Virus record (IMG/VR): IMGVR_UViG_3300042355_000374
Location: 1 to 30,203 of that record
Direction: 5' to 3' (one strand)
DNA length: 30,203 nt
Source of the DNA: a virus
Positions 1,749 to 28,533 of the stretch are shown here, in pieces (position 1 is the first letter of the stretch; the number at the start of each line of letters is the position of its first letter). Under the pieces are notes generated by a model. That model did no database searches. It was not told the origin of the DNA and saw only the letters and a program-made list of their open reading frames with translations. A program made the position numbers and the translations under genes.

Positions 1749-2615
1749 TCAGGCTTGTTTCTGGTGAATCTGACGGACGATTTTTGGCACCGTAGTGTCC
1801 CAGTCGATCGAATGGTGGATGCGTGGGTGCGCCGTTCCACTCATGGCACCCACCTTCACAGATGAAGGCATCGTCATCACCGTGTAAAACGACTTCGCAT
1901 AGGTTCCATGCTGCAAATACATTTCTGTCAGCCCACCCTTTTGAGACTGTGTTTGAGCCTGGGTCAGCATCACAGCGAACGTCGTCATAAAAAGATGACC
2001 GCGGGAGCCGAGTGTCGTGTATGTTGAAACGTCCTCGTTCATGCGGGAAACAAACGAGAAACGCCTTTCTGGAGAACAGAAAAACGAATTCATCGCCTTT
2101 CGATAGATCGGCGATTTGTAGACGGTCCCAGACTTCAAACCACCGATGAAATCGCCACCCTGGGCAATTGCGATTGACGACACACTGGTGGACCAAAAGA
2201 ACCTTGTAACGGCAGCAAATATCGAGTCCAGGTCTTTGACCTTTTGGCCCTTGAGCTTCCCGTCCTCCGCATATCGGGACATGAACGACATGTAGTCATC
2301 GTCCAGTTGGACAAAAGTCCTGATTCCCAGGCGTTCAGCGATATCGAAACACGCATTTCGAGGGTGGAGGATTGTCAGGTTGTTCGGGATGTTGTCGAAA
2401 GTGTCGATGCGTTTTCGGATCTCAGCCTTCGAGAACATTTCCACCATGCCGGGGAAGTTCCTCCGATAGTCGGCCCCCTGTTTGTCTTCGTCATCAACGA
2501 CCAGGACGACCCGCCCGGTGTACCCGTGGCTTTTGAGTGTCCTGATTGTTTTGACGTTGTTCGCTCTGCCATGGGTCAGAATGAAGACAGCAAAAGTGCC
2601 GAGGTCGTTATCCAT
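1749..2615 (-). CDS. TET-associated glycosyltransferase-like protein (TAGT)
   Basis: This is a putative DNA-base glycosyltransferase of 288 residues. The N-terminus reads as a Rossmann-like GT-A start, with FILTHGR at residues 11-17 and VVLVVDDED at 36-44. QLDDDY around residues 103-108 looks like the metal/NDP-sugar DxD site. RMNED at 191-195, QTQSQKGG at 221-228 and HGTYAKSFY at 236-244 are further motifs I associate with phage TAGT proteins, which were predicted to attach sugars to oxidised or hydroxymethylated pyrimidines. The chosen ATG at 2615 overlaps the ParB stop by 8 nt. A TTG at 2642 in the same frame is an alternative start. A GAGGA lies about 19 nt upstream of the ATG, so either start is possible. 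No TET dioxygenase or hydroxymethylase is visible in the window, so the substrate base is unknown. Confidence 0.72.
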   Translation of the reverse strand: MDNDLGTFAVFILTHGRANNVKTIRTLKSHGYTGRVVLVVDDEDKQGADYRRNFPGMVEMFSKAEIRKRIDTFDNIPNNLTILHPRNACFDIAERLGIRTFVQLDDDYMSFMSRYAEDGKLKGQKVKDLDSIFAAVTRFFWSTSVSSIAIAQGGDFIGGLKSGTVYKSPIYRKAMNSFFCSPERRFSFVSRMNEDVSTYTTLGSRGHLFMTTFAVMLTQAQTQSQKGGLTEMYLQHGTYAKSFYTVMTMPSSVKVGAMSGTAHPRIHHSIDWDTTVPKIVRQIHQKQA

Positions 2616-3384
2616 TTTGAGCGCGTTTTTGAATGTCCTCAATGGTCTTGGTCATCTCGACGTAACCGTTTTCGATGGCTGAATCCATGTCGACAACCAC
2701 CAGGGCTGATCGTTCCATCAATTGCTGAACCTCCCGCGGGGCGTGGGCGTAATATTCGGCGATGTTGCCGTAATTGAATACAACGTGTCGATTGGCTGCC
2801 GCCAGCAACAGTGACTTTGCTTCAAGGTCAATCTCGGCCGCATTGATTTCCTCAATCAAATCGGATGCCTTCGATGAATCGACCATCTCGTTGAGCTTTG
2901 GCTTGTCTCCCGTGATTTCATAGATCAGACCCTTGATTTTGGTCGAATAGGCGTTATCGGCCTCCCCGTCGAGCGAACCGATCAGGTCTGTGATCTCGTC
3001 ATCCGAGAAGCCGACCAGGTCCATTTCGAACCCGTCTTCCTTCAGGGTTGCCAATTCAGCCGCCAGCATTTTCTCGTCCCACCCGGCATTGAGGGCGAGC
3101 TTGTTGTCGGCAATGACGTAGGCTCGCACCTGGGAAGGGGTCAGATGACCCAGGCGGATGCATGGAATCATTTCGATCCCGAGTTTGCGGGCAGCCATCA
3201 CCCGACCATGACCTGCGACAATCGTCCCGCGGGCGTCGATCAGGACAGGGTTGGTCCATCCGAACTCGACCATTGAGGCCGCAATTTGGGCCACCTGGTC
3301 AGGTGAATGGGTCCGGCTGTTGTTTGCGTATGGGATCAGGTCTCCGATGGGGATCTCTTCGATTTGGTGTTCCGTTTTCTTCAT
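2608..3384 (-). CDS. ParB/sulfiredoxin-fold protein with distinct C-terminal domain
   Basis: This 258-residue protein has an N-terminal ParB-like domain at about residues 8-135. It includes PIGDLIPYANNSR and the signature GTIVAGHGRVMAARKLG, with the GHGR box at 58-61. In most phage relatives this domain is followed by a DNA methylase. Here a different domain follows from about residue 148, containing LLAAANRH, AEYYAHAP and a conserved-looking SALVVVD stretch. I recognise this layout as the ParB partner commonly found next to TAGT genes, so a role in DNA binding or target choice for base modification is inferred. It starts inside the stop of the small terminase gene (ATGA) and overlaps the glycosyltransferase gene downstream. 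It shows no partner ParA or parS-like site, so a segregation role is unlikely. Confidence 0.8.
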   Translation of the reverse strand: MKKTEHQIEEIPIGDLIPYANNSRTHSPDQVAQIAASMVEFGWTNPVLIDARGTIVAGHGRVMAARKLGIEMIPCIRLGHLTPSQVRAYVIADNKLALNAGWDEKMLAAELATLKEDGFEMDLVGFSDDEITDLIGSLDGEADNAYSTKIKGLIYEITGDKPKLNEMVDSSKASDLIEEINAAEIDLEAKSLLLAAANRHVVFNYGNIAEYYAHAPREVQQLMERSALVVVDMDSAIENGYVEMTKTIEDIQKRAQNG

Positions 3385-6912: not shown

Positions 6913-7154
6913 GGGCTGATCTTTTGTCTGTAGTGCGGAACAGGATACGAAGTTCGAAGCGGCATTCGAATCCGGAACTTGCGGCCCTCCATGATCCCGG
7001 CCCTGAGTGCCTCGGTGATCAGTCGGTTGGTCTGGGCGCGTTGCAGTCCCCATTCGGCCCCCCATTGCGCGACGGTCTTCCACTCCGGCCCCGGGGTTTG
7101 AATGGTCTGCTGGATCTCCTCCCGGATGCGTGTCAGAAGTTCGGAAGATTCCAT
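6909..7154 (-). CDS. Small helix-turn-helix-like protein
   Basis: The gene encodes 81 residues. Residues 1-20 form a helix (SSELLTRIREEIQQTI). Then VAQWGAEWGLQRAQTNRLI followed by TEALRAGIMEGRKFRIRMP reads as a winged helix-turn-helix with a GRKFRI wing. It is probably a DNA-binding regulator or accessory factor. The ATG at 7154 overlaps the end of the metallophosphoesterase by 22 nt, with AAGG upstream. An ATG 21 nt earlier is possible. Confidence 0.6.
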   Translation of the reverse strand: MESSELLTRIREEIQQTIQTPGPEWKTVAQWGAEWGLQRAQTNRLITEALRAGIMEGRKFRIRMPLRTSYPVPHYRQKISP

Positions 7155-7933
7155 TGTGTTTCGCCTTGGCTCCATTGGTGAACGTAGAGTTGGGCCGAAT
7201 CGTCGGTGAACTCCCCGAAAACGATGCCGTGCGACCAGGCCAGCGTTGAACGTCTTCGCAGGGCATAGTCCATGGCCGCGGCATCTGCCAGCGTACCAGG
7301 TGACAGACAAACCGGGTGGCTTTCGGTGCGGCCGGTGGCCATTCCAGCGCGGTGGGCATGGGCCACGACACAATCGCCCCAGGTCTCGGCAGAGTCTCGC
7401 AGGAAGTTCTCGCCGAAGAGAATCCCATGACCCCATCGGAACCCGCCCAGCCGGTACCAGGAGCGATCCAGGACGTCGTGATGTTTGATGAAAACCCGTG
7501 CATGGCGTTCGATGGGCGCGACCATTTGTTGCCAGACGGCCTCGGCGAACCCGCGGACAACCGTGTTGTGATGCCTGGTGTATTTGAGAGCCCGCAGGTC
7601 ATGATTCCCAACGATGAAGACCGTCGGCCGGAGCGCATCCAGGAACTCGACCCCGCATCGAATGTCGTCCAGGTAATCGTCGGCATGATCCGAGTCGTCA
7701 GGGTTGGCCAATGCACCAGCCCGAAGGCTGGCCAGGTCGTAGGCATCGCCCAGGTGGATGACCTCGTCCGGGCGGAATTGTTCCCGGAACAAAAGGGCGG
7801 CAGCCAGTGCGTTCGGGTTGGCTCTGTTGCCATGAGAACACCCGACGGCCATGACCCGGCGGCAGGCGGTGACGACATTCACGATGATGACCCGTGGACC
7901 AGAAACACGCCTTGGTTTCAAGTCTGCGGGCAT
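7133..7933 (-). CDS. Calcineurin-like metallophosphoesterase
   Basis: The gene encodes up to 266 residues. Metal-binding motifs appear in the family order: GCSHGNR (taking the place of the usual D-x-H block), HLGDAYD (GDxxD), VGNHD (GNHD/E), and VVAHAH near residue 193 (GHxH-like). The first aspartate of the D-x-H block is replaced by Cys, which may weaken one metal site. The enzyme could hydrolyse phosphomonoesters or diesters of nucleic acids or nucleotides; the substrate cannot be read from sequence. The start is uncertain: 7933 (ATG) gives 27 residues before the first core strand, while 7882 (GTG) or 7852 (ATG) would start nearer the fold. None has a strong Shine-Dalgarno. Confidence 0.8.
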   Translation of the reverse strand: MPADLKPRRVSGPRVIIVNVVTACRRVMAVGCSHGNRANPNALAAALLFREQFRPDEVIHLGDAYDLASLRAGALANPDDSDHADDYLDDIRCGVEFLDALRPTVFIVGNHDLRALKYTRHHNTVVRGFAEAVWQQMVAPIERHARVFIKHHDVLDRSWYRLGGFRWGHGILFGENFLRDSAETWGDCVVAHAHRAGMATGRTESHPVCLSPGTLADAAAMDYALRRRSTLAWSHGIVFGEFTDDSAQLYVHQWSQGETQWNLPNF

Positions 7934-7951: not shown

Positions 7952-8203
7952 TCAAATCACGTCCCTCCGGCGTTGGCCTGAACCGATCAGCGAAACAGCG
8001 GCTCGGGTGATTCCGTGATCGTTTGCAATGTCTTTGATGGGCTCCCCACGACCCCACCTTGCGCGGATATCCCGGACAGCCTCGTCGGGCAACGGCTTGT
8101 GGAAGAGAACACCGTTCGTCAATTTCTTCGTCGGGACCAACGCATGGGTCGGCTGTGGCCCTAGGAGTCGGGCGATCTGTTCTGAGGTCAGCGTCGCGCT
8201 CAC
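7952..8203 (-). CDS. Small helix-turn-helix protein
   Basis: The gene encodes 83 residues. The C-terminal half, PDEAVRDIRARWGRGEPIKD followed by IANDHGITRAAVSLI and GSGQRRR, is a good helix-turn-helix of the homeodomain-like type with a basic tail. The N-terminus (TSEQIARLLG) may be another helix pair. It is likely a phage regulator or DNA-binding accessory protein. The GTG start at 8203 overlaps the previous stop (GTGA). Confidence 0.65.
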   Translation of the reverse strand: MSATLTSEQIARLLGPQPTHALVPTKKLTNGVLFHKPLPDEAVRDIRARWGRGEPIKDIANDHGITRAAVSLIGSGQRRRDVI

Positions 8204-8496
8204 GATTTTGGCCCTTCAATGATGTCCACCGATGAAACCGGGACACCGTGCTTTTTGCAGTGCCGTATCAGGTTGGACACCTGGTCGTCGAGAACCGAGG
8301 CCCTGTCGGTGATCCTGCGAAGGTGAGCCTTCAACGCCTTGTTGGTTTGTTCCTGGCGAGCGGTGAGATCGACCAGGGCTTGCATTCGTTCTGCGGCCTC
8401 GAACAGGGCAGCCTGAACAGCCCCATCGTCGGACTGGATCTGAGTCCCGATGATGCGGAGCGCGGAGATGATCGTGGCGGTGGGTGCTGGCTTCAC
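8200..8496 (-). CDS. Hypothetical coiled-coil protein
   Basis: The gene encodes 98 residues. A long helix runs from about residue 25 to 80 (AALFEAAERMQALVDLTARQ, LKAHLRRITDRASVLDDQVS), with heptad-like hydrophobic spacing. It starts with GTG at 8496 inside the repeated junction sequence and ends EGPKS, where GAAGG and a GTGA overlap repeat the junction logic in degenerate form. No family is recognised. Confidence 0.6.
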   Translation of the reverse strand: MKPAPTATIISALRIIGTQIQSDDGAVQAALFEAAERMQALVDLTARQEQTNKALKAHLRRITDRASVLDDQVSNLIRHCKKHGVPVSSVDIIEGPKS

Positions 8497-8726
8497 GGCT
8501 TGGCCTCCTTGGCTTGGTTTCTATTTTGATTGATGAAGCTAATTGGATTTGCTGAAAGCGTCTGCCTACCGCAATGGATGCATTTCCATTTTCTTTTAAC
8601 ATTGAATGCAACGTCCCAGTGAGAATGTGGGCCATGGAAACTGTTGTTTACTGGTTCCCAATAATGAGAACATGCAATTCCACGAAACATTTTGAGTATC
8701 TTTCCAATGTAATTCATTGCACTCAC
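8493..8726 (-). CDS. Low-GC small protein with putative zinc-binding residues (inserted cassette)
   Basis: The gene encodes 77 residues from a GTG at 8726, which has AAAGGAGG at proper spacing; an ATG at 8717 is an alternative. Cys and His residues (ACSHYW, FHGPHSH, CIHCGR) suggest a small zinc-binding domain. Two full 60-base lines inside it (8581-8700) count 37-40% GC, against about 60% in neighbours. The gene is flanked by two almost identical 27-bp direct repeats, and it ends AKEAKP like the gene before it. These traits suggest recent acquisition as a cassette. Function unknown. Confidence 0.6.
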   Translation of the reverse strand: MSAMNYIGKILKMFRGIACSHYWEPVNNSFHGPHSHWDVAFNVKRKWKCIHCGRQTLSANPISFINQNRNQAKEAKP

Positions 8727-8974
8727 GGCTTGGCCTCCTTTGCTTTGTTCCACTTCTCAATCTCCATGTGCCACCCCATAAAGGCGGCAGCAGCACATAG
8801 TACATCCCCCGCCTCCTCCAGCCGCTTGATGCGGTCGACCAGACGGTTGAGTTCGTTGACGATTGCCAATGGCGGATCGTAATAGCCGTAAGATCCGGGT
8901 ATCCTGGATTGATTGCTTGGTGGCTGGATCCACTCAAGCCCGTTGCACGACATGAGGGTGTAGTGGCCGGTCAC
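8723..8974 (-). CDS. Hypothetical small helical protein
   Basis: The gene encodes 83 residues with a GTG start at 8974 overlapping the previous stop. The middle, AIVNELNRLVDRIKRLEEAG followed by DVLCAAAAFMGWHMEIEKW, resembles the conserved C-terminus of small phage proteins that end in a helical GD-x-L-x-x-AAA-x-F motif. It ends NKAKEAKP; those codons also form the AAAGGAGG ribosome-binding site of the next gene. Confidence 0.6.
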   Translation of the reverse strand: MTGHYTLMSCNGLEWIQPPSNQSRIPGSYGYYDPPLAIVNELNRLVDRIKRLEEAGDVLCAAAAFMGWHMEIEKWNKAKEAKP

Positions 8975-9168
8975 GACTTGGCCTCCACGATGAAGTCAAA
9001 GTTGACGCGCCAGGTCTCCCCGAGGCGGTTGAAGGTTTCATTGCCGATCTTCCACGTCGCGGGCTTGGCCTTGTAGGTGGTTTTTCGGCAGTGGATGCGC
9101 AGCCCTTCAATGGATTGAATCGGGATGTTTCGGAGTCGGTGATCCGGTGGGAGTTCGTGCAGCTTCAC
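8971..9168 (-). CDS. Hypothetical 65-residue protein
   Basis: It begins MKLHELPPDHRLRNIPIQSI and has a basic, beta-rich centre (HCRKTTYKAK, WKIGNETFNRL). The GTG start at 9168 overlaps the previous stop, and its last codons (VEAKS) provide GTGGAGG for the next gene. No family is recognised. Confidence 0.55.
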   Translation of the reverse strand: MKLHELPPDHRLRNIPIQSIEGLRIHCRKTTYKAKPATWKIGNETFNRLGETWRVNFDFIVEAKS

Positions 9169-9404
9169 GGCTTTGCCTCCAGCTTTCGAATCAGCGCGTC
9201 AGCGTAGGCCACGCAGGTCGTAGCGACCTTGTCCGGATCTGAGTCGCACATTGAGTGGTTTCGACCGGCCGCCCAACCCATGAGAGCCTGGCCAGCGAAG
9301 TGTGCGCGGAGGCTCATGCCATGGAACGGAAAGTTGACTCCGTTGTGAATGTACTGGACCGCATGAGGAAACGCCGGCCCTCCATCATTTGGCTTCTCTT
9401 TCAT
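9165..9404 (-). CDS. Hypothetical phage protein of the PNDGGPAFP type
   Basis: The gene encodes 79 residues. The N-terminus KPNDGGPAFPHAV and the later GMSLRAHFAGQALMG are a signature I know from many small uncharacterised phage proteins. No activity is known to me. The ATG at 9404 lies in the shared junction (CTGGAGG upstream, ATGA overlap). A longer frame to 9515 would overlap the coiled-coil gene and is rejected. It ends LEAKP. Confidence 0.65.
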   Translation of the reverse strand: MKEKPNDGGPAFPHAVQYIHNGVNFPFHGMSLRAHFAGQALMGWAAGRNHSMCDSDPDKVATTCVAYADALIRKLEAKP

Positions 9405-9586
9405 TGCTTGGCCTCCAGTTGCTTGACCTTTGCCTTCAGCTTGCGGATTTCGCGGATCGCTTGTTCCGGGTCTCCCGTGCCGAGTTCGGCCTGGAGATCC
9501 TCGCGGAGCTTCCATTTTTGGTCTGCCTGTCGTCGTGCGGTGTCGCGTTCTGCGATCAATTGTTGGATGCGTTCTTGGTCAGTCAT
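9401..9586 (-). CDS. Short coiled-coil protein
   Basis: All 61 residues are likely helical, with runs such as RIQQLIAERDTARRQ, KWKLREDLQAEL and REIRKLKAKVKQLEAK, and heptad-like Leu/Ile spacing. It probably acts as a small dimerising protein. The ATG at 9586 overlaps the previous stop. The final LEAKQ codons carry the ribosome-binding site for the next gene. Confidence 0.6.
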   Translation of the reverse strand: MTDQERIQQLIAERDTARRQADQKWKLREDLQAELGTGDPEQAIREIRKLKAKVKQLEAKQ

Positions 9587-9729
9587 TTGGTTTTCGGTTT
9601 GCGTTTCCAGGGGCTGAGATTGTTGACGAGCCGATGCCTTTTGGCTGCACGGTACGCCTCGCCCACGGTCTCTTTCGACATCGGGGCAGCGTCAATTCCC
9701 TGGAGCCTGAGCAACGGCTTTTTGTTCAT
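9583..9729 (-). CDS. Hypothetical 48-residue basic protein
   Basis: It starts MNKKPLLRLQGI at an ATG overlapping the lytic transglycosylase stop (ATGA), with AAAGGA about 9-10 nt upstream. The C-terminal half is strongly basic (AKRHRLVNN, WKRKPKTK). A longer reading to 9807 would lie inside the upstream gene. Function unknown; the charge could suit nucleic-acid or partner binding. Confidence 0.55.
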   Translation of the reverse strand: MNKKPLLRLQGIDAAPMSKETVGEAYRAAKRHRLVNNLSPWKRKPKTK

Positions 9730-10058
9730 CGTGAGAGTTCCTTTTCGATCTTCCTCCAGTAGGGCAGCGTCGCTGGTTTCCGGTCTCCAGTGGGACCGCC
9801 ATTCCATCGCCTGGCGAGTTGCTCGGTCGTCGCCCCACGTCCGTAGTGCCGAAGGTAGGCTTCACAGACGGCCCTGGCCTGGGCGCGGTTGGTCATCGAC
9901 TCCCAGCGGTAATTCGACCCGGTGAATCGGTTCACGTCCACCACCACGGCCCGGTGGATCTGGAGCGGCCCCAAGGCTCGGCCTTGGTCACCGATTGCAC
10001 TGTCCCGCCCGCCGGATTCCACGGCGATCAATGCGGTGATGAGGTTGGTCAGGTTCAT
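9726..10058 (-). CDS. Lytic transglycosylase-like (SLT fold) muralytic protein
   Basis: The gene encodes 110 residues. The SLT/goose-lysozyme hallmarks are present: catalytic Glu14 in AVESGGRDS, the ALGPLQIH loop at about residues 28-35, an AYLRHYG helix at 67-73, and ARRWNGGP at 82-89. These enzymes cleave the glycan backbone of peptidoglycan. No signal peptide or membrane segment is visible, so export would need a holin or the protein acts inside the cell or virion. It lies among early-type small genes, about 14 kb from the holin-like genes. It is the best endolysin candidate in the window. Confidence 0.78.
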   Translation of the reverse strand: MNLTNLITALIAVESGGRDSAIGDQGRALGPLQIHRAVVVDVNRFTGSNYRWESMTNRAQARAVCEAYLRHYGRGATTEQLARRWNGGPTGDRKPATLPYWRKIEKELSR

Positions 10059-10958: not shown

Positions 10959-11429
10959 TCAGTCTGTGAACTGCTGAAGGTTCAATCGCAGCAGTGGATC
11001 GGGTGACGATGCCGATCCGAGGATGACCAGGCATCCAGCCCGGTGTCCGTACGCCTTGCCGATCTCCAGTTGGACCACCTGGGAATCGTCGCGCCAGACC
11101 TGAAGCTGGGTCAGCGCGTCCATGACAGCCTTCGCCAGGTTGTCCAGGTCAGGCTTGGATTCGTGCCAGGTTGGAGCGTTCGGTTTGATGTCGCCACTCC
11201 TGGTGAAGTGCGCCTTGGGTCGCGGCATGAAAAACCCGAGAACTAGGCGAAGCGGTCCCAGGAACTGCACCCGGTTCCAATTCGCCCGACACGCAGCACC
11301 GACAGCGAGCTTCCAGCCATCGGCAGTCCCAGGGTCGTACACTCCAGCGCGATTGCCCCTGCGGAACGCCTTGACCCGAGGCTGAGCCTTGGGTTGGCCG
11401 ACGACCACGAACTGAAGGATCTCAGCCAT
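10959..11429 (-). CDS. rusA: RusA-family Holliday junction resolvase
   Basis: The gene encodes 156 residues. The RusA pattern is clear: GQPKAQPRVKAFRRG at the N-terminus, then PDLDNLAKAVMDAL at about residues 93-106 and WRDDSQVV at 112-119. Together these give the cluster of aspartates that bind magnesium for cutting four-way junctions. It would resolve recombination and replication intermediates before packaging. The ATG at 11429 overlaps the OB-fold gene by 8 nt; a GTG at 11441 is an alternative start. It is the last gene of the recombination module, followed by the AT-rich gap. Confidence 0.92.
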   Translation of the reverse strand: MAEILQFVVVGQPKAQPRVKAFRRGNRAGVYDPGTADGWKLAVGAACRANWNRVQFLGPLRLVLGFFMPRPKAHFTRSGDIKPNAPTWHESKPDLDNLAKAVMDALTQLQVWRDDSQVVQLEIGKAYGHRAGCLVILGSASSPDPLLRLNLQQFTD

Positions 11430-11760
11430 GACGCAGCCCACTTTCTGGGTCGATGACGGTCAGGATTCGACCCGTGACCCGCGGGTTCGCATACCACCAG
11501 CCCGTCGGGCTCTTCTCGGCGACAGCGTCTGCATCACCATCGAAGGCGATCAGAACGCCAGCCCGAAGCGAATCGACCAGGGCATGATCCTCGGCGGCGA
11601 ATGAACGGAACTGGACCCGCTGGGCATAGGCCGTCCCCTTTGCAAGAGTCCGTTGCTCGAACTCAACAGTCAGCAGCATGACTGGATTTCCAGACTCTGC
11701 CGTGTGCATTTCTGCCGCATTCAGGATGCGAGCGAACCCGGTTCCTCTCAGGCTTCTCAT
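11422..11760 (-). CDS. OB-fold, SSB-like protein of the recombination module
   Basis: The gene encodes 112 residues. The N-terminal part reads as consecutive beta strands (VMLLTVEFEQRTL, QRVQFRSFA), then a helix (HALVDSLRAG), then strands with a WWYANPRVTGRILTV end. This order suits a small OB-fold single-strand binding protein of the kind found beside phage nucleases and RusA. It lacks the acidic tail seen in the protein at 4795-5088, so the two may have different jobs. The ATG at 11760 overlaps the MazG-like stop. Confidence 0.6.
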   Translation of the reverse strand: MRSLRGTGFARILNAAEMHTAESGNPVMLLTVEFEQRTLAKGTAYAQRVQFRSFAAEDHALVDSLRAGVLIAFDGDADAVAEKSPTGWWYANPRVTGRILTVIDPESGLRHG

Positions 11761-12209
11761 TCGATGATGGGCTTGAGGTTTGCCGGTGAGTAGGACGGCG
11801 ACTTGATGACCTTCCCGTCGTTGCGTCTGACGATCCAGCGGCCTTCACCAGCCGGAAGTGCGCGAGCATCAGCCGGAACGTTGGTCAGTTCGTCTTCGCT
11901 CCACAATTTTGACAGGTTGCTTCGGTGGATCTCAGCGAGTGCATCGTCCACCTGTTGAGACGTGAATCCAGCAGCCAGGGCGGCCCCGTACACGACGTAG
12001 AGCAGGTCCCCGACTGCATCCAGGTATTCGACCAGGTCGGTTGCCGCTGCAAGTTCCTGGGCCTCTTCGTCGATCAGTCGAAACCGCAGGTTTTGAACCT
12101 CAGGCTTTGGCATTTTGGAGATCCCAGGAACGTCCTGACCAAAGGTCAGCATGAACTCTTCGACCATGTCCATCGGGTGGTTGTCGGTGTCTTCCATGAC
12201 GGGTTTCAT
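11757..12209 (-). CDS. MazG-like nucleoside triphosphate pyrophosphohydrolase
   Basis: The gene encodes 150 residues. LIDEEAQEL at about residues 45-53 gives the E-E-x-x-E metal motif, and YLDAVGDLLYVVYGAALAAG at 62-81 gives the paired helix with D65 and D68. Together these mark the all-alpha NTP-PPase superfamily (MazG/PRA-PH type). Such enzymes hydrolyse NTPs or dNTPs to the monophosphate and pyrophosphate. In phages they may adjust nucleotide pools or dampen host stress signals. It is coupled by 4-nt overlaps on both sides. A role in removing an unwanted dNTP for modified DNA would fit the glycosyltransferase, but is speculative. Confidence 0.78.
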   Translation of the reverse strand: MKPVMEDTDNHPMDMVEEFMLTFGQDVPGISKMPKPEVQNLRFRLIDEEAQELAAATDLVEYLDAVGDLLYVVYGAALAAGFTSQQVDDALAEIHRSNLSKLWSEDELTNVPADARALPAGEGRWIVRRNDGKVIKSPSYSPANLKPIIE

Positions 12210-13303
12210 TCGTTCGCTTTCTCTTTGATGATCGACGGTGAGGTTGCTTTCTGTTCGGTGCAGTCTTCCAGGAGACCCTCGACGAGTTCGTCCAGGGCCT
12301 TGCCTTTTGATCCGGTCGCAGTTTTCACAGCGTCCCGGAACTTTGTTTTGGTGATTGTGATGGCCCCCGCGAATTGCTCCTGGGTTCCACCAGCCTGGAC
12401 GAATCGACCAAACACGACCTCGGGCTTGGTGATTGACTCGCGGACGGCCCCGGGCTTGAGCTTCCAGCCTGGGATTGCTCCACCGGCTTCGAGGATTCGG
12501 CGGGCCTTGCCCCTGACCGATTCGATGACTGCTTCAGCCAGCGGGATCTTGTCCAGGAACGCTGCGATTTGTTCCGGGCTCATGACGATCTCGCCGGACT
12601 CTTTTTGCACGGTGGCTGGCAGCGTCTCAACGACCCCGCGGGCTTCAGGGCAGATGGGTTTCGCTCGACAGTATTTGCAGCCGTCAGACGACGGTACACG
12701 CGGTTGACCAGGTTGCCGCACTGATTCCATCAGTCTCGCCATCTCGGCCTCGGCGCGGACCAAATCCTGCGCACCATAGGTGCAGGTGGTTGGCTCACTT
12801 TCGGAAGGTTGGATGATTGAGACCGTGATTTGCCGGAATGGACCGAACGTCAGGTTGACCAGGACAGCCAACGCCCTCAGTTGGACGTTCCCAGTCGCGT
12901 GTTCGACAGTTCCCCGGCCGGTCTTGTAGTCGATGACCAGGGCTGTCGCTGTTGCCTCGTCGTAATAGACCACGTCCGGTTTCCCGGACCACGCCTTTTC
13001 GAAGGCTCTGTCGTAATCCCACAGGCGTCTTTCCCGAATCGCAAGAAACGCGGTTTCGAACGGGAACACGGCCTTGCGCAACGTGTCCTCCATCGCACGA
13101 CAGGCCGATGCGATACGCTGTTCCTCGTCTGGCAGTTGAATGATCTCGCCAGCGAGGTATGAGTGGATGCGGTTTCCGGTGGTGGCATCAGATGATGAAA
13201 CCTCCGGTTCGGTGACCTGTTGCTCCAGCAGGAATGACCCGGGGCAAACAGCGTATCGCGCAGCAGATGACGCGGACGGAAGTCCTTGACGTTCGTCGCT
13301 CAC
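12206..13303 (-). CDS. PD-(D/E)XK nuclease, Cas4/RecB-like, with four-cysteine cluster (DUF2800-type)
   Basis: The gene encodes 365 residues. The nuclease core is visible as H47 (NRIHSYL), D110 in SGKPDVVYY, D125-x-K127 in VIDYKTG, and Q141 in VQLRALAV. Cysteines C20 (VCPGS) and C209, C212 and C218 (CKYC..PIC) have the 1+3 spacing of Cas4/AddB-type iron-sulfur nucleases. This indicates a DNA exonuclease or end-resection enzyme. The C-terminal 120 residues are a separate Lys-rich region. With the putative annealing protein two genes upstream, it could form a two-component phage recombination system. Confidence 0.78.
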   Translation of the reverse strand: MSDERQGLPSASSAARYAVCPGSFLLEQQVTEPEVSSSDATTGNRIHSYLAGEIIQLPDEEQRIASACRAMEDTLRKAVFPFETAFLAIRERRLWDYDRAFEKAWSGKPDVVYYDEATATALVIDYKTGRGTVEHATGNVQLRALAVLVNLTFGPFRQITVSIIQPSESEPTTCTYGAQDLVRAEAEMARLMESVRQPGQPRVPSSDGCKYCRAKPICPEARGVVETLPATVQKESGEIVMSPEQIAAFLDKIPLAEAVIESVRGKARRILEAGGAIPGWKLKPGAVRESITKPEVVFGRFVQAGGTQEQFAGAITITKTKFRDAVKTATGSKGKALDELVEGLLEDCTEQKATSPSIIKEKANE

Positions 13304-25346: not shown

Positions 25347-25688
25347 TCAGTTTTCGGAGGAAGTCTCCGTGACGATTTCAACCTCCGAGGTTGACTCTGT
25401 CGAGACCGAAGCATCGACGACAGGCTCCTCAACGACAATGACCTCGGGCTCCGGGATCGGATGCGCCGCGGCGTAGGCTGCAATGACCTCGGGAGTCCAA
25501 AGCACGTTGGCAATGCGGACAGCATCGGCCGGCTTGCCTTCGAGCGAATCACCCGGGGCAAGGTCGTAGGTTCCCACAGGCTCCACGGAGACCTGCACTC
25601 CGTCCTTGAGATAGGCGATAGTCTCCTGAACCAGGAGGCTGCAATCGGGCCGTACGGTAACGGCGCAGCGGTTCTTAGTTTCGATCAT
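25347..25688 (-). CDS. Small beta-rich protein, paralogue of the next upstream gene
   Basis: The gene encodes 113 residues. Residues about 8-75 align with the neighbour at 25692-25949: both have a Val-rich start, a dG-x-x-V strand, LAPG-x-S/D-L-x-G and then VxIAN-x-x-WTPEVxAAY. This copy has an extra 35-residue acidic tail (EPEVIVVEEP, STESTSEVEIV). Such genes commonly follow phage tail fibres. A chaperone or fibre-tip role is possible but not shown. Confidence 0.65.
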   Translation of the reverse strand: MIETKNRCAVTVRPDCSLLVQETIAYLKDGVQVSVEPVGTYDLAPGDSLEGKPADAVRIANVLWTPEVIAAYAAAHPIPEPEVIVVEEPVVDASVSTESTSEVEIVTETSSEN

Positions 25689-25691
25689 GGG

Positions 25692-25949
25692 TCAGTCTCC
25701 GATGGGGTTTTGGTTGGCTGCGACCTGGGCCTCGTAGGCGGCAACCACCTCGGGAGTCCAGACGGCGTTGGCAATGGCAACCACCTGGTCCGGCTCGCCG
25801 GTCAGGTCAGAGCCAGGGGCCAGGCAATAGCGGTGGAAAGTCTGCGCCTTGACCGTCTCGCCGTCCAGAATCTGGTTGGCGAGTCGGACTTGGATCGTGC
25901 CGTTGGGCGTGACATCGACAAGTGAAACGGTTGAGCGTTCGGTGAGCAT
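25692..25949 (-). CDS. Small beta-rich protein, tandem paralogue
   Basis: The gene encodes 85 residues beginning MLTERSTVSLVDVTPNGTIQ. It shares the LAPGSDLTG block and AIANAVWTPEVVAAYEAQ with the gene just downstream, so the two are tandem duplicates with diverged N-termini and tails. It follows the tail fibre gene by 3 nt. No clear Shine-Dalgarno; it may depend on coupling to the fibre gene. Confidence 0.65.
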   Translation of the reverse strand: MLTERSTVSLVDVTPNGTIQVRLANQILDGETVKAQTFHRYCLAPGSDLTGEPDQVVAIANAVWTPEVVAAYEAQVAANQNPIGD

Positions 25950-27363: not shown

Positions 27364-28533
27364 TCAGAGGATTTTCCACTTGGTTCCGGTGTAACTCAGC
27401 ACAAGGACCGCGTCGTTGCGGTTGATGATGTAAGACGTTTGACCTGCCGTCTCGATGTCTTTTGTTCCGGCGTTGACCGTGATTGTGTTGGTCGCGGCTT
27501 GGCTTGTGATGTCCGCAATTTCGATGCGTTGGGCCAGACTGCCAGGATCGGGCAGCGTAATCGTGACTGGAGCGACTCTGGCTCCAACCTGCACAAGGTA
27601 ATTGGTCCCCGCGGTGAGCGTCGCCAGGTGGGTGACAGCCGTCGGGCTTGCTGGCGTGGTGATGCCGGCGACCGGCGACGTCTCGCCCTGGAGAACCAAC
27701 GCGGTTGCAGGCGTGTTGTCGAACGCGGCCGCTGTGCCCGGGGTCTTGCCGTCGGGCGTGGCGTTGACAAACGACTGAGACAACGAGGGCATCACCGGCG
27801 TCGGCTGGGTGTTGTCGAATGCTGCCGCATTGCCGGGCGTGACTGCTCCTGGAGGGGTGTTGTCGAAGACATTGTCCTCGGTACCGACATCGAGGCTCGA
27901 TACCGTGATCTGGGAGAACGTGATCGCAGACGATCCAACTGTGACCACAGTCGAGGTAAGTTGCCACCAAGTATTTGCGGACGTGCCCCCGGTGACGTTG
28001 ACGACCAGTTCCACCGGGAACTCATTTGGCGCGTCGAACAAGCTCAACCGAGCCAGAACGGACTCGTTTAGTTGGTCGTTTTGCGCGGTCGATGCTGGCC
28101 CCTGAAAGGTCAATGTACCTGACGGAGACGCGGCGATGTAACCGCTTTCGGTGAGTGTTTCGGTGCCGTTGGTGGCATTGTAGCCGTTGGACTGGCTCCA
28201 ATAGTAAAGCCGGCCAGCGGTCAATCCGGTGACAACCTTTGTTCCCGTACCAAACGAAGCCGAGATGTTGACCGATGTCCCACTTGCTGACGTGACGTAG
28301 ATTCCGTTTTGGGCAGTCGTCGATTGGGCGGTCAGCAACACGGCCCGGCTTGAAACCGTGGCCGCGGTGCCCTGCAAGCTCACCCCGTCCAATGTACCGG
28401 ACAGGGCTGTTGCCAAGGTTAGGTTGCTCTGCGCCCGGACGACTGCGGTGAACCTTGAAGGAACACCGTAAATCGTCGGGCCTGTGTTGTTCCATGCCGC
28501 GGCCAAGCCGGGCGTGATTGGATCGGCTGGCAT
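27364..28533 (-). CDS. Structural protein with TPG-AAA-F/W-N-T repeats
   Basis: The gene encodes 389 residues, rich in Thr, Ser, Ala and Val. It contains a degenerate repeat: ITPGLAAAWNNTGPT near residue 6, VTPGNAAAFDNTQPT and KTPGTAAAFDNTPAT around 230-275, with partial copies (VFDNTPPG, SQSFVNATPDG) between. The C-terminal 100 residues (HLATLTAGTNYLVQVGARVA, VTITLPDPGSLAQRIEIADI) resemble the end domain of other phage virion proteins. It is likely a tail fibre or fibre-linker protein. The repeats suggest a segmented linker. Confidence 0.65.
   Translation of the reverse strand: MPADPITPGLAAAWNNTGPTIYGVPSRFTAVVRAQSNLTLATALSGTLDGVSLQGTAATVSSRAVLLTAQSTTAQNGIYVTSASGTSVNISASFGTGTKVVTGLTAGRLYYWSQSNGYNATNGTETLTESGYIAASPSGTLTFQGPASTAQNDQLNESVLARLSLFDAPNEFPVELVVNVTGGTSANTWWQLTSTVVTVGSSAITFSQITVSSLDVGTEDNVFDNTPPGAVTPGNAAAFDNTQPTPVMPSLSQSFVNATPDGKTPGTAAAFDNTPATALVLQGETSPVAGITTPASPTAVTHLATLTAGTNYLVQVGARVAPVTITLPDPGSLAQRIEIADITSQAATNTITVNAGTKDIETAGQTSYIINRNDAVLVLSYTGTKWKIL

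Follow-up and report, generated by a model that had tools for sequence, protein, structure and literature searches.

A long-standing question about phage mosaicism is whether it arises through short sequences shared at gene edges or through illegitimate recombination followed by selection. In a 30,203-nt stretch of viral DNA (IMG/VR record IMGVR_UViG_3300042355_000374, positions 1 to 30,203; hereafter the window), a small gene encoding 77 amino acids (aa) is bracketed by two near-identical repeats, and the first-pass annotation regarded it as a foreign gene captured together with a copy of a junction. Does this gene move as a unit, and what part do the repeats play? We find that the repeats are copies of a joint, GGAGGCCAAGCYGTGA on the minus strand, which combines stop, Shine-Dalgarno sequence and start and lies between four successive small genes. 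It is probable that gene cassettes are shuffled by general recombination at this translation joint, and the cassette boundaries, the exchange of neighbours, and the empty and replaced sites can all be observed in the contigs compared. The window is a tailed-phage contig, with genes for tail, tape measure, terminase small subunit, DnaC-like loader and replication initiator; the array belongs to the early, non-structural part of the genome and has RusA resolvase and PD-(D/E)XK nuclease genes near it. Comparisons took in hundreds of contigs from uncultivated viruses of bacteria.

A repeat that joins successive genes

The two repeats (8493-8519 and 8723-8749) match at 25 of 27 positions, the first 18 exactly, as the first-pass annotation had stated. 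Read along the minus strand, which is the coding one, the repeat is AACCAAGCCAAGGAGGCCAAGCCGTGA. It comprises the 3' end of one gene, a GGAGG Shine-Dalgarno sequence and a GTGA that serves two genes at once, its TGA as the stop of the upstream gene and its GTG as the start of the one that follows. This 4-nt overlap is present in both copies, and their description as start-stop junctions is thus correct. The pair is real, but it is not a one-off duplicated junction: it represents two of five joints here, and hundreds of copies exist elsewhere. The core, GGAGGCCAAGCCGTGA, occurs at five consecutive gene junctions (8493, 8723, 8971, 9165 and 9401), and the rest of the window has no copy. After shuffling of the window the mean number of core matches with three mismatches or fewer was 0.52, and five copies were reached in 0 of 100 shuffles. 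The joints of the window are as follows.

9401..9416, minus strand: joint 1, GGAGGCCAAGCAATGA, two mismatches, a variant with an ATG start; the same copy is found in the closest relative, contig L153
9165..9180, minus strand: joint 2, GGAGGCAAAGCCGTGA, one mismatch
8971..8986, minus strand: joint 3, GGAGGCCAAGTCGTGA, one mismatch
8723..8738, minus strand: joint 4, GGAGGCCAAGCCGTGA, exact match
8493..8508, minus strand: joint 5, GGAGGCCAAGCCGTGA, exact match, holding the Shine-Dalgarno sequence, the stop of the 77-aa gene and the GTG of the next gene; the lone joint at this place in L153

The joint consensus covers about 24 nt, (A)AAGCCAAGGAGGCCAAGCYGTGA(GC), and its extended form is AAAGCCAAGGAGGCCAAGCYGTGAGC. 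Among copies within two mismatches the AAGC of the spacer is almost invariant, and ribosome pairing alone would not require the degree of conservation seen between GGAGG and GTG. Upstream of joints, the TGA phase has a median open length of 105 codons, versus 15-22 in the other phases. Because the upstream gene reads through the joint in the same phase, the C-termini of proteins encoded upstream of joints are often alike (for example AKEAKP or AKEAKL), and crossovers between any joints are in phase. Folding of the RNA at the joint was no better than in shuffles and gave neither a stem-loop nor a foldable attC-like structure, and a simple consensus scan found no promoter- or terminator-like sites at the joints. 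As RNA, the joint would be a translation-coupling element, with GTGA preceded by GGAGG seven bases upstream. The next junction downstream (8200-8217, minus strand, GAAGGGCCAAAATCGTGA) may be a decayed joint, but with a similarity too weak for a claim.

The same cassette between different neighbours

Each cassette consists of a single small gene of 50-190 aa, which starts with the GTG of one joint and stops with the TGA of the following joint. The gene that raised the question is the fourth in the array.

8493..8726, minus strand: reported gene, cassette 4; 77 aa, GTG start, CxH...H...H...CxxC, 41% GC; joint-to-joint unit of 230 bp

Using its 86-aa reading frame as query, we found relatives of this gene on 27 other IMG/VR contigs, at 85-88% aa and about 94% nt identity. 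The homology in every copy runs exactly from joint to joint, and the DNA differs on both sides. Loci with both flanks available place the gene next to at least 8 different neighbours upstream and 7 downstream. Of the 12 combinations seen, 5 were found in 2-5 independent samples; two upstream neighbours (U0 and U4) and two downstream neighbours (D0 and D2) are present in all four combinations. These results bear out the earlier suggestion of a mobile cassette ending at the junction repeats, since the same gene stands between varied neighbours in many phages and identity stops at the repeats. The contigs L011, L016, L022, L023 and L024 stop exactly at the 77-aa cassette, an outcome to be expected if it has several contexts within one sample. 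One further contig (IMGVR 3300034102_000945) has an array that leaves at one end (L166) and resumes at the other, its start (L268), with a partial copy of the 77-aa gene (95% aa identity over 40 residues), which suggests that the genome is circular or permuted and that the contig was opened at this cassette.

The same behavior extends to other cassettes. Single-linkage clustering at E 1e-6 fused unrelated genes, apparently through a shared coiled-coil tail, and nucleotide clusters were therefore adopted. The joint-bounded cassettes collected by then formed 136 families at 80% nt identity or more, and most of the families with several members had nearly as many contexts as members. Where pairs share a cassette and differ in a neighbour, 153 of 183 pairs lose identity on the upstream side 0-9 nt ahead of GGAGG, and 151 of 170 lose it on the downstream side 0-2 nt past GTGA. 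The commonest upstream limit, seven to nine bases before GGAGG, agrees with the extended joint consensus.

As a control, small genes of the same contigs without contact to a joint were handled identically. For pairs at 97-100% nt identity, both neighbours were shared by 9% of the cassette pairs versus 74% of the ordinary-gene pairs, and neither neighbour by 59% versus 6%; at 90-97% identity the corresponding values were 0% versus 63% and 91% versus 9%, these pairs being non-independent events for which the identity classes correct contig relatedness only in part. Re-assortment is therefore a property of the joint-bounded genes, since most ordinary small genes on these contigs retain their neighbours.

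The low GC content of the 77-aa gene had been taken as a sign of foreign capture. The values themselves were confirmed (38.3% for 8581-8700 and 61.7% for 9001-9060, in a window of 59.2%), but they are not evidence of a recent foreign capture, the gene having 41-43% GC in every carrier phage regardless of a locus GC of 48-59%. This constancy means that low GC is the gene's own trait and says nothing about when the gene reached the window. Here the copy is 6% diverged from every other copy. The gene comes from a cassette pool that phages share, rather than from any demonstrated donor outside it.

Empty and replaced sites

In L153 (L161 and L241 denote this contig as well) the upstream genes 9726, 9583, 9401 and 9165 are present at 98-100% aa identity and the downstream genes 8200, 7952 and 7133 at 99%. 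Gene 9165 is linked straight to 8200 through a single GGAGGCCAAGCCGTGA, and in the alignment with the window the switch from one flank to the other falls inside the joint. The flanks have 97-99% nt identity to the window and are unique to this lineage.

8493..9164, minus strand: block absent from L153; 672 bp, made up of cassettes 8971, 8723 and 8493 and nothing else

A relative with an empty site and a single junction, of the kind that the annotation had proposed to look for, is thus found, although the missing unit is 672 bp and three cassettes long rather than the 230 bp alone. The gene at 8971 occurs in almost every other clade member, and for that reason the simplest polarity is that L153 lost the block by a deletion from one joint to another. 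The empty site is probably a deletion in L153 and not an insertion in the window, which leaves the earlier interpretation supported in part. The whole collection holds 35 empty-site and 24 replacement comparisons, which are comparisons and not independent events, and in some replacements the 230-bp cassette is swapped for stretches of 176 or 430 bp between similar flanks.

Distribution of the joint arrays

Loci were also retrieved independently of the motif, through the two genes that flank the array.

9726..10058, minus strand: lysozyme-like anchor upstream of the array; 40% identity to a Cellulophaga phage protein annotated as lysozyme
7133..7933, minus strand: metallophosphoesterase anchor downstream of the array; PF00149

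The lysozyme-like gene retrieved 80 loci, 59 of them with joints (132 copies), and the metallophosphoesterase 79 loci, 51 with joints (113 copies), none of the copies being on the opposite strand in either set; ten permuted motifs had 0 copies in the anchor-retrieved loci. With the anchors in the order seen in the window, the interval between them ranged from about 1.0 to 4.4 kb. In 20 whole records (27-62 kb) all joint copies lay in one cluster on one strand, one cluster spanning the contig ends, and a scan of IMG/VR with the joint motif gave at least 120 stretches.

Among cultured phages, no relative of the 77-aa cassette, its neighbour or the metallophosphoesterase was found, and the joint repeat gave chance-level matches only. 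The sole plausible match of a genome scan, and the only hint of a host, is L160 (JAURFH010000292.1), a 4-kb contig in a Verrucomicrobiota metagenome-assembled genome that carries a joint array and relatives of the 8723, 8971 and 9583 genes; the same assembled genome has a 41% relative of the metallophosphoesterase on another contig. The other four bacterial or archaeal matches look like single chance matches, and 387 Verrucomicrobiota genomes gave scattered matches only.

How cassettes may be exchanged

Homologous recombination is the agent that we infer. As DNA, the joint would offer general homologous recombination a stretch of identity through which the DNA of co-infecting phages could be joined. 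Because all joints share the same reading-frame phase, any joint-to-joint crossover leaves intact genes, and a working ribosome site would be kept with them. Cassettes could in this way be gained, lost, replaced or duplicated with their neighbours unharmed. Candidate agents are RecT, in some relatives, and the products of two genes of the window.

10959..11441, minus strand: RusA Holliday-junction resolvase, near the array; PF05866, E 2.9e-22
12206..13303, minus strand: PD-(D/E)XK nuclease, recombination/replication region; PF12705 and phrog_69 exonuclease

In the 20 whole array-bearing records, RecT was above cut-off in 5 and RusA in 9, whereas a tyrosine recombinase/integrase was found in only 1 and a serine resolvase in none; exonuclease VIII and UvsX-like proteins were among the recombination genes in ten sampled loci. 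A site-specific recombinase class common to the arrays was not found and general recombination genes are frequent but varied, which fits the use of whatever homologous recombination is at hand on a patch that is short and strictly conserved.

Several points weigh against this reading. The stretch shared at joints measures 16-27 bp, which is close to or under the length that general recombination usually needs to be efficient. RecT was not recognised in the window itself, a record that may be incomplete. The conservation of the joint could stem mainly from its role in translation, and the whole evidence base consists of metagenomic contigs.

A broader version would be that one exchange joint serves a widespread group of phages as a common interface, that selection maintains it for the interchangeability as such, and that a factor of the phage or the host perhaps recognises it. 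Small accessory genes, like the coiled-coil heads set on common tails, would then circulate through a joint pool in the manner of integron cassettes, without an integrase; we consider this unlikely. It is also unlikely that the joint is conserved solely as a regulated translation-initiation site, similar to the SAS repeats discussed below, with illegitimate rearrangements among which selection keeps intact junctions. The motif does hold a Shine-Dalgarno sequence, stop and start, its conserved spacer would suit a regulator, and illegitimate recombination has been seen as an attractive general route to phage mosaicism (PMC3029335). However, nearly all pairs have their breakpoints inside a shared repeat or a few bases from it, whereas illegitimate exchange that only kept genes whole would also hit repeat-free junctions, and the retention of neighbours by ordinary genes of the same contigs is equally against it. 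A dedicated site-specific system, with a recombinase or endonuclease that reads the joint and moves cassettes as in integrons, is very improbable: one-gene units, a fixed boundary sequence and the near-invariant AAGC would suit it, but 19 of the 20 array-bearing records have no tyrosine recombinase and none a serine resolvase, no attC-like structure folds, and the replication and recombination genes vary among array-bearing phages. Assembly chimeras at a short shared sequence, which almost identical cassettes of about 230 bp might produce in short-read assembly and to which the five contigs ending at the cassette could be attributed, are the least credible explanation, given that several neighbour combinations recur across independent samples, that the window copy is divergent, that the empty site of L153 has lineage-unique flanks, and that such contig ends are also expected from true multiple contexts in one sample.

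Other genes of the array and its surroundings

The general recombination that we favor may have further points of entry within the cassettes. The other genes of the array are as follows.

9165..9404, minus strand: cassette 1; 79 aa, phrog_2201 (unknown function), 100% aa identity in L153
8971..9168, minus strand: cassette 2; 65 aa, conserved in most of the window's clade, absent from L153
8723..8974, minus strand: cassette 3; 83 aa, variable head and shared coiled-coil-like tail RIKRLEEAGD...WNKAKEAKP
8200..8496, minus strand: gene downstream of the array; 98 aa, 99% aa identity in L153, where it directly follows cassette 1

Cassette 2 has 85-95% aa and 82-90% nt identity in relatives, and the 3' half of cassette 3 about 95% nt identity to several loci. 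Among 254 distinct cassettes of related loci, many combine a common coiled-coil-like 3' part with an unrelated 5' part: 40 cassettes with the tail '..QLEQENDALRADLLLW..' have 19 different heads, and the 6 members of the tail family of the 8723 gene (RIKRLEEAGD...) have 6. It is as if heads were exchanged on common tails, a second level of modularity, and the shared tails, which extend the identical sequence beside the joint, may offer extra exchange points.

The product of the 77-aa gene is most likely, as a guess from its sequence, a small metal-binding accessory protein. Residues C19, H21, H31, H34, H36, C49 and C52 are conserved in all six aligned sequences, and there is a weak match to phrog_7696, an uncharacterised phage family. 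The predicted structure (mean pLDDT 57.8) was unusable; no credible relative with a solved structure was found.

Elsewhere in the window, the structural-gene region has imperfect direct repeats of 47-67 nt (25472-25538 and 25733-25799; 27703-27749, 27799-27845 and 28474-28520), probably repeated protein segments. A match to the beta-glucosyl-HMC-alpha-glucosyltransferase family (1749-2642, E 1e-63) adjoins a ParB/methyltransferase-type protein (2608-3384), a pair possibly linked to DNA modification.

Relation to known systems

No paper describing the joint was found in the searches made of open-licence papers. The Start-Associated Sequence (SAS) of cluster K mycobacteriophages is a 13-bp repeat, GGGATAGGAGCCC, with mostly ATG starts and often an extended inverted repeat (PMC3203893). 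Like the joint, it is short, places a Shine-Dalgarno core a few bases before the starts of unrelated genes, is restricted to non-structural genes, and lies mostly in one orientation (PMC3203893), as joints lie on one strand. In contrast, joints do not match its consensus; they have stop and start built in, occur once per gene in a packed array, and come with cassette exchange documented against a control. The promoter early stem-loop (PeSL) of T4-type phages, an early promoter with a stem-loop that shuffles modules (Arbiol 2010, Comeau 2014, as cited in PMC4503421), is likewise, as far as the citing paper presents it, a repeated regulatory element between genes with module shuffling between related phages, whereas joints have no intergenic space, stem-loop, or, by consensus scan, promoter- or terminator-like site.

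Short conserved boundary sequences have been proposed as a source of phage mosaicism (as cited in PMC3029335). To the extent that the citing paper sets the proposal out, it shares with the joints the short conserved module edges and homologous recombination, the latter inferred here, and our breakpoints do lie within a short sequence common to both parents; the difference is that a single sequence recurs at every gene of the array and in many phages. Integron cassettes are similar as single-gene units in tandem arrays with a shared boundary sequence and free re-ordering, but the joint arrays lack a common integrase and an attC-like fold, and their boundary doubles as a translation signal. Unlike a moron, a cassette had no promoter or terminator of its own in the simple consensus scan. 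The best reading is that the joint system is a variant of boundary-sequence or SAS/PeSL-type modular exchange, here at a fusion of stop, ribosome site and start.

This fusion sits at the breakpoints of many exchanges, against control genes that mostly keep their neighbours. It suggests a route by which phages could shuffle small accessory genes with their operons unbroken, and a defined sequence is now at hand for measuring exchange.
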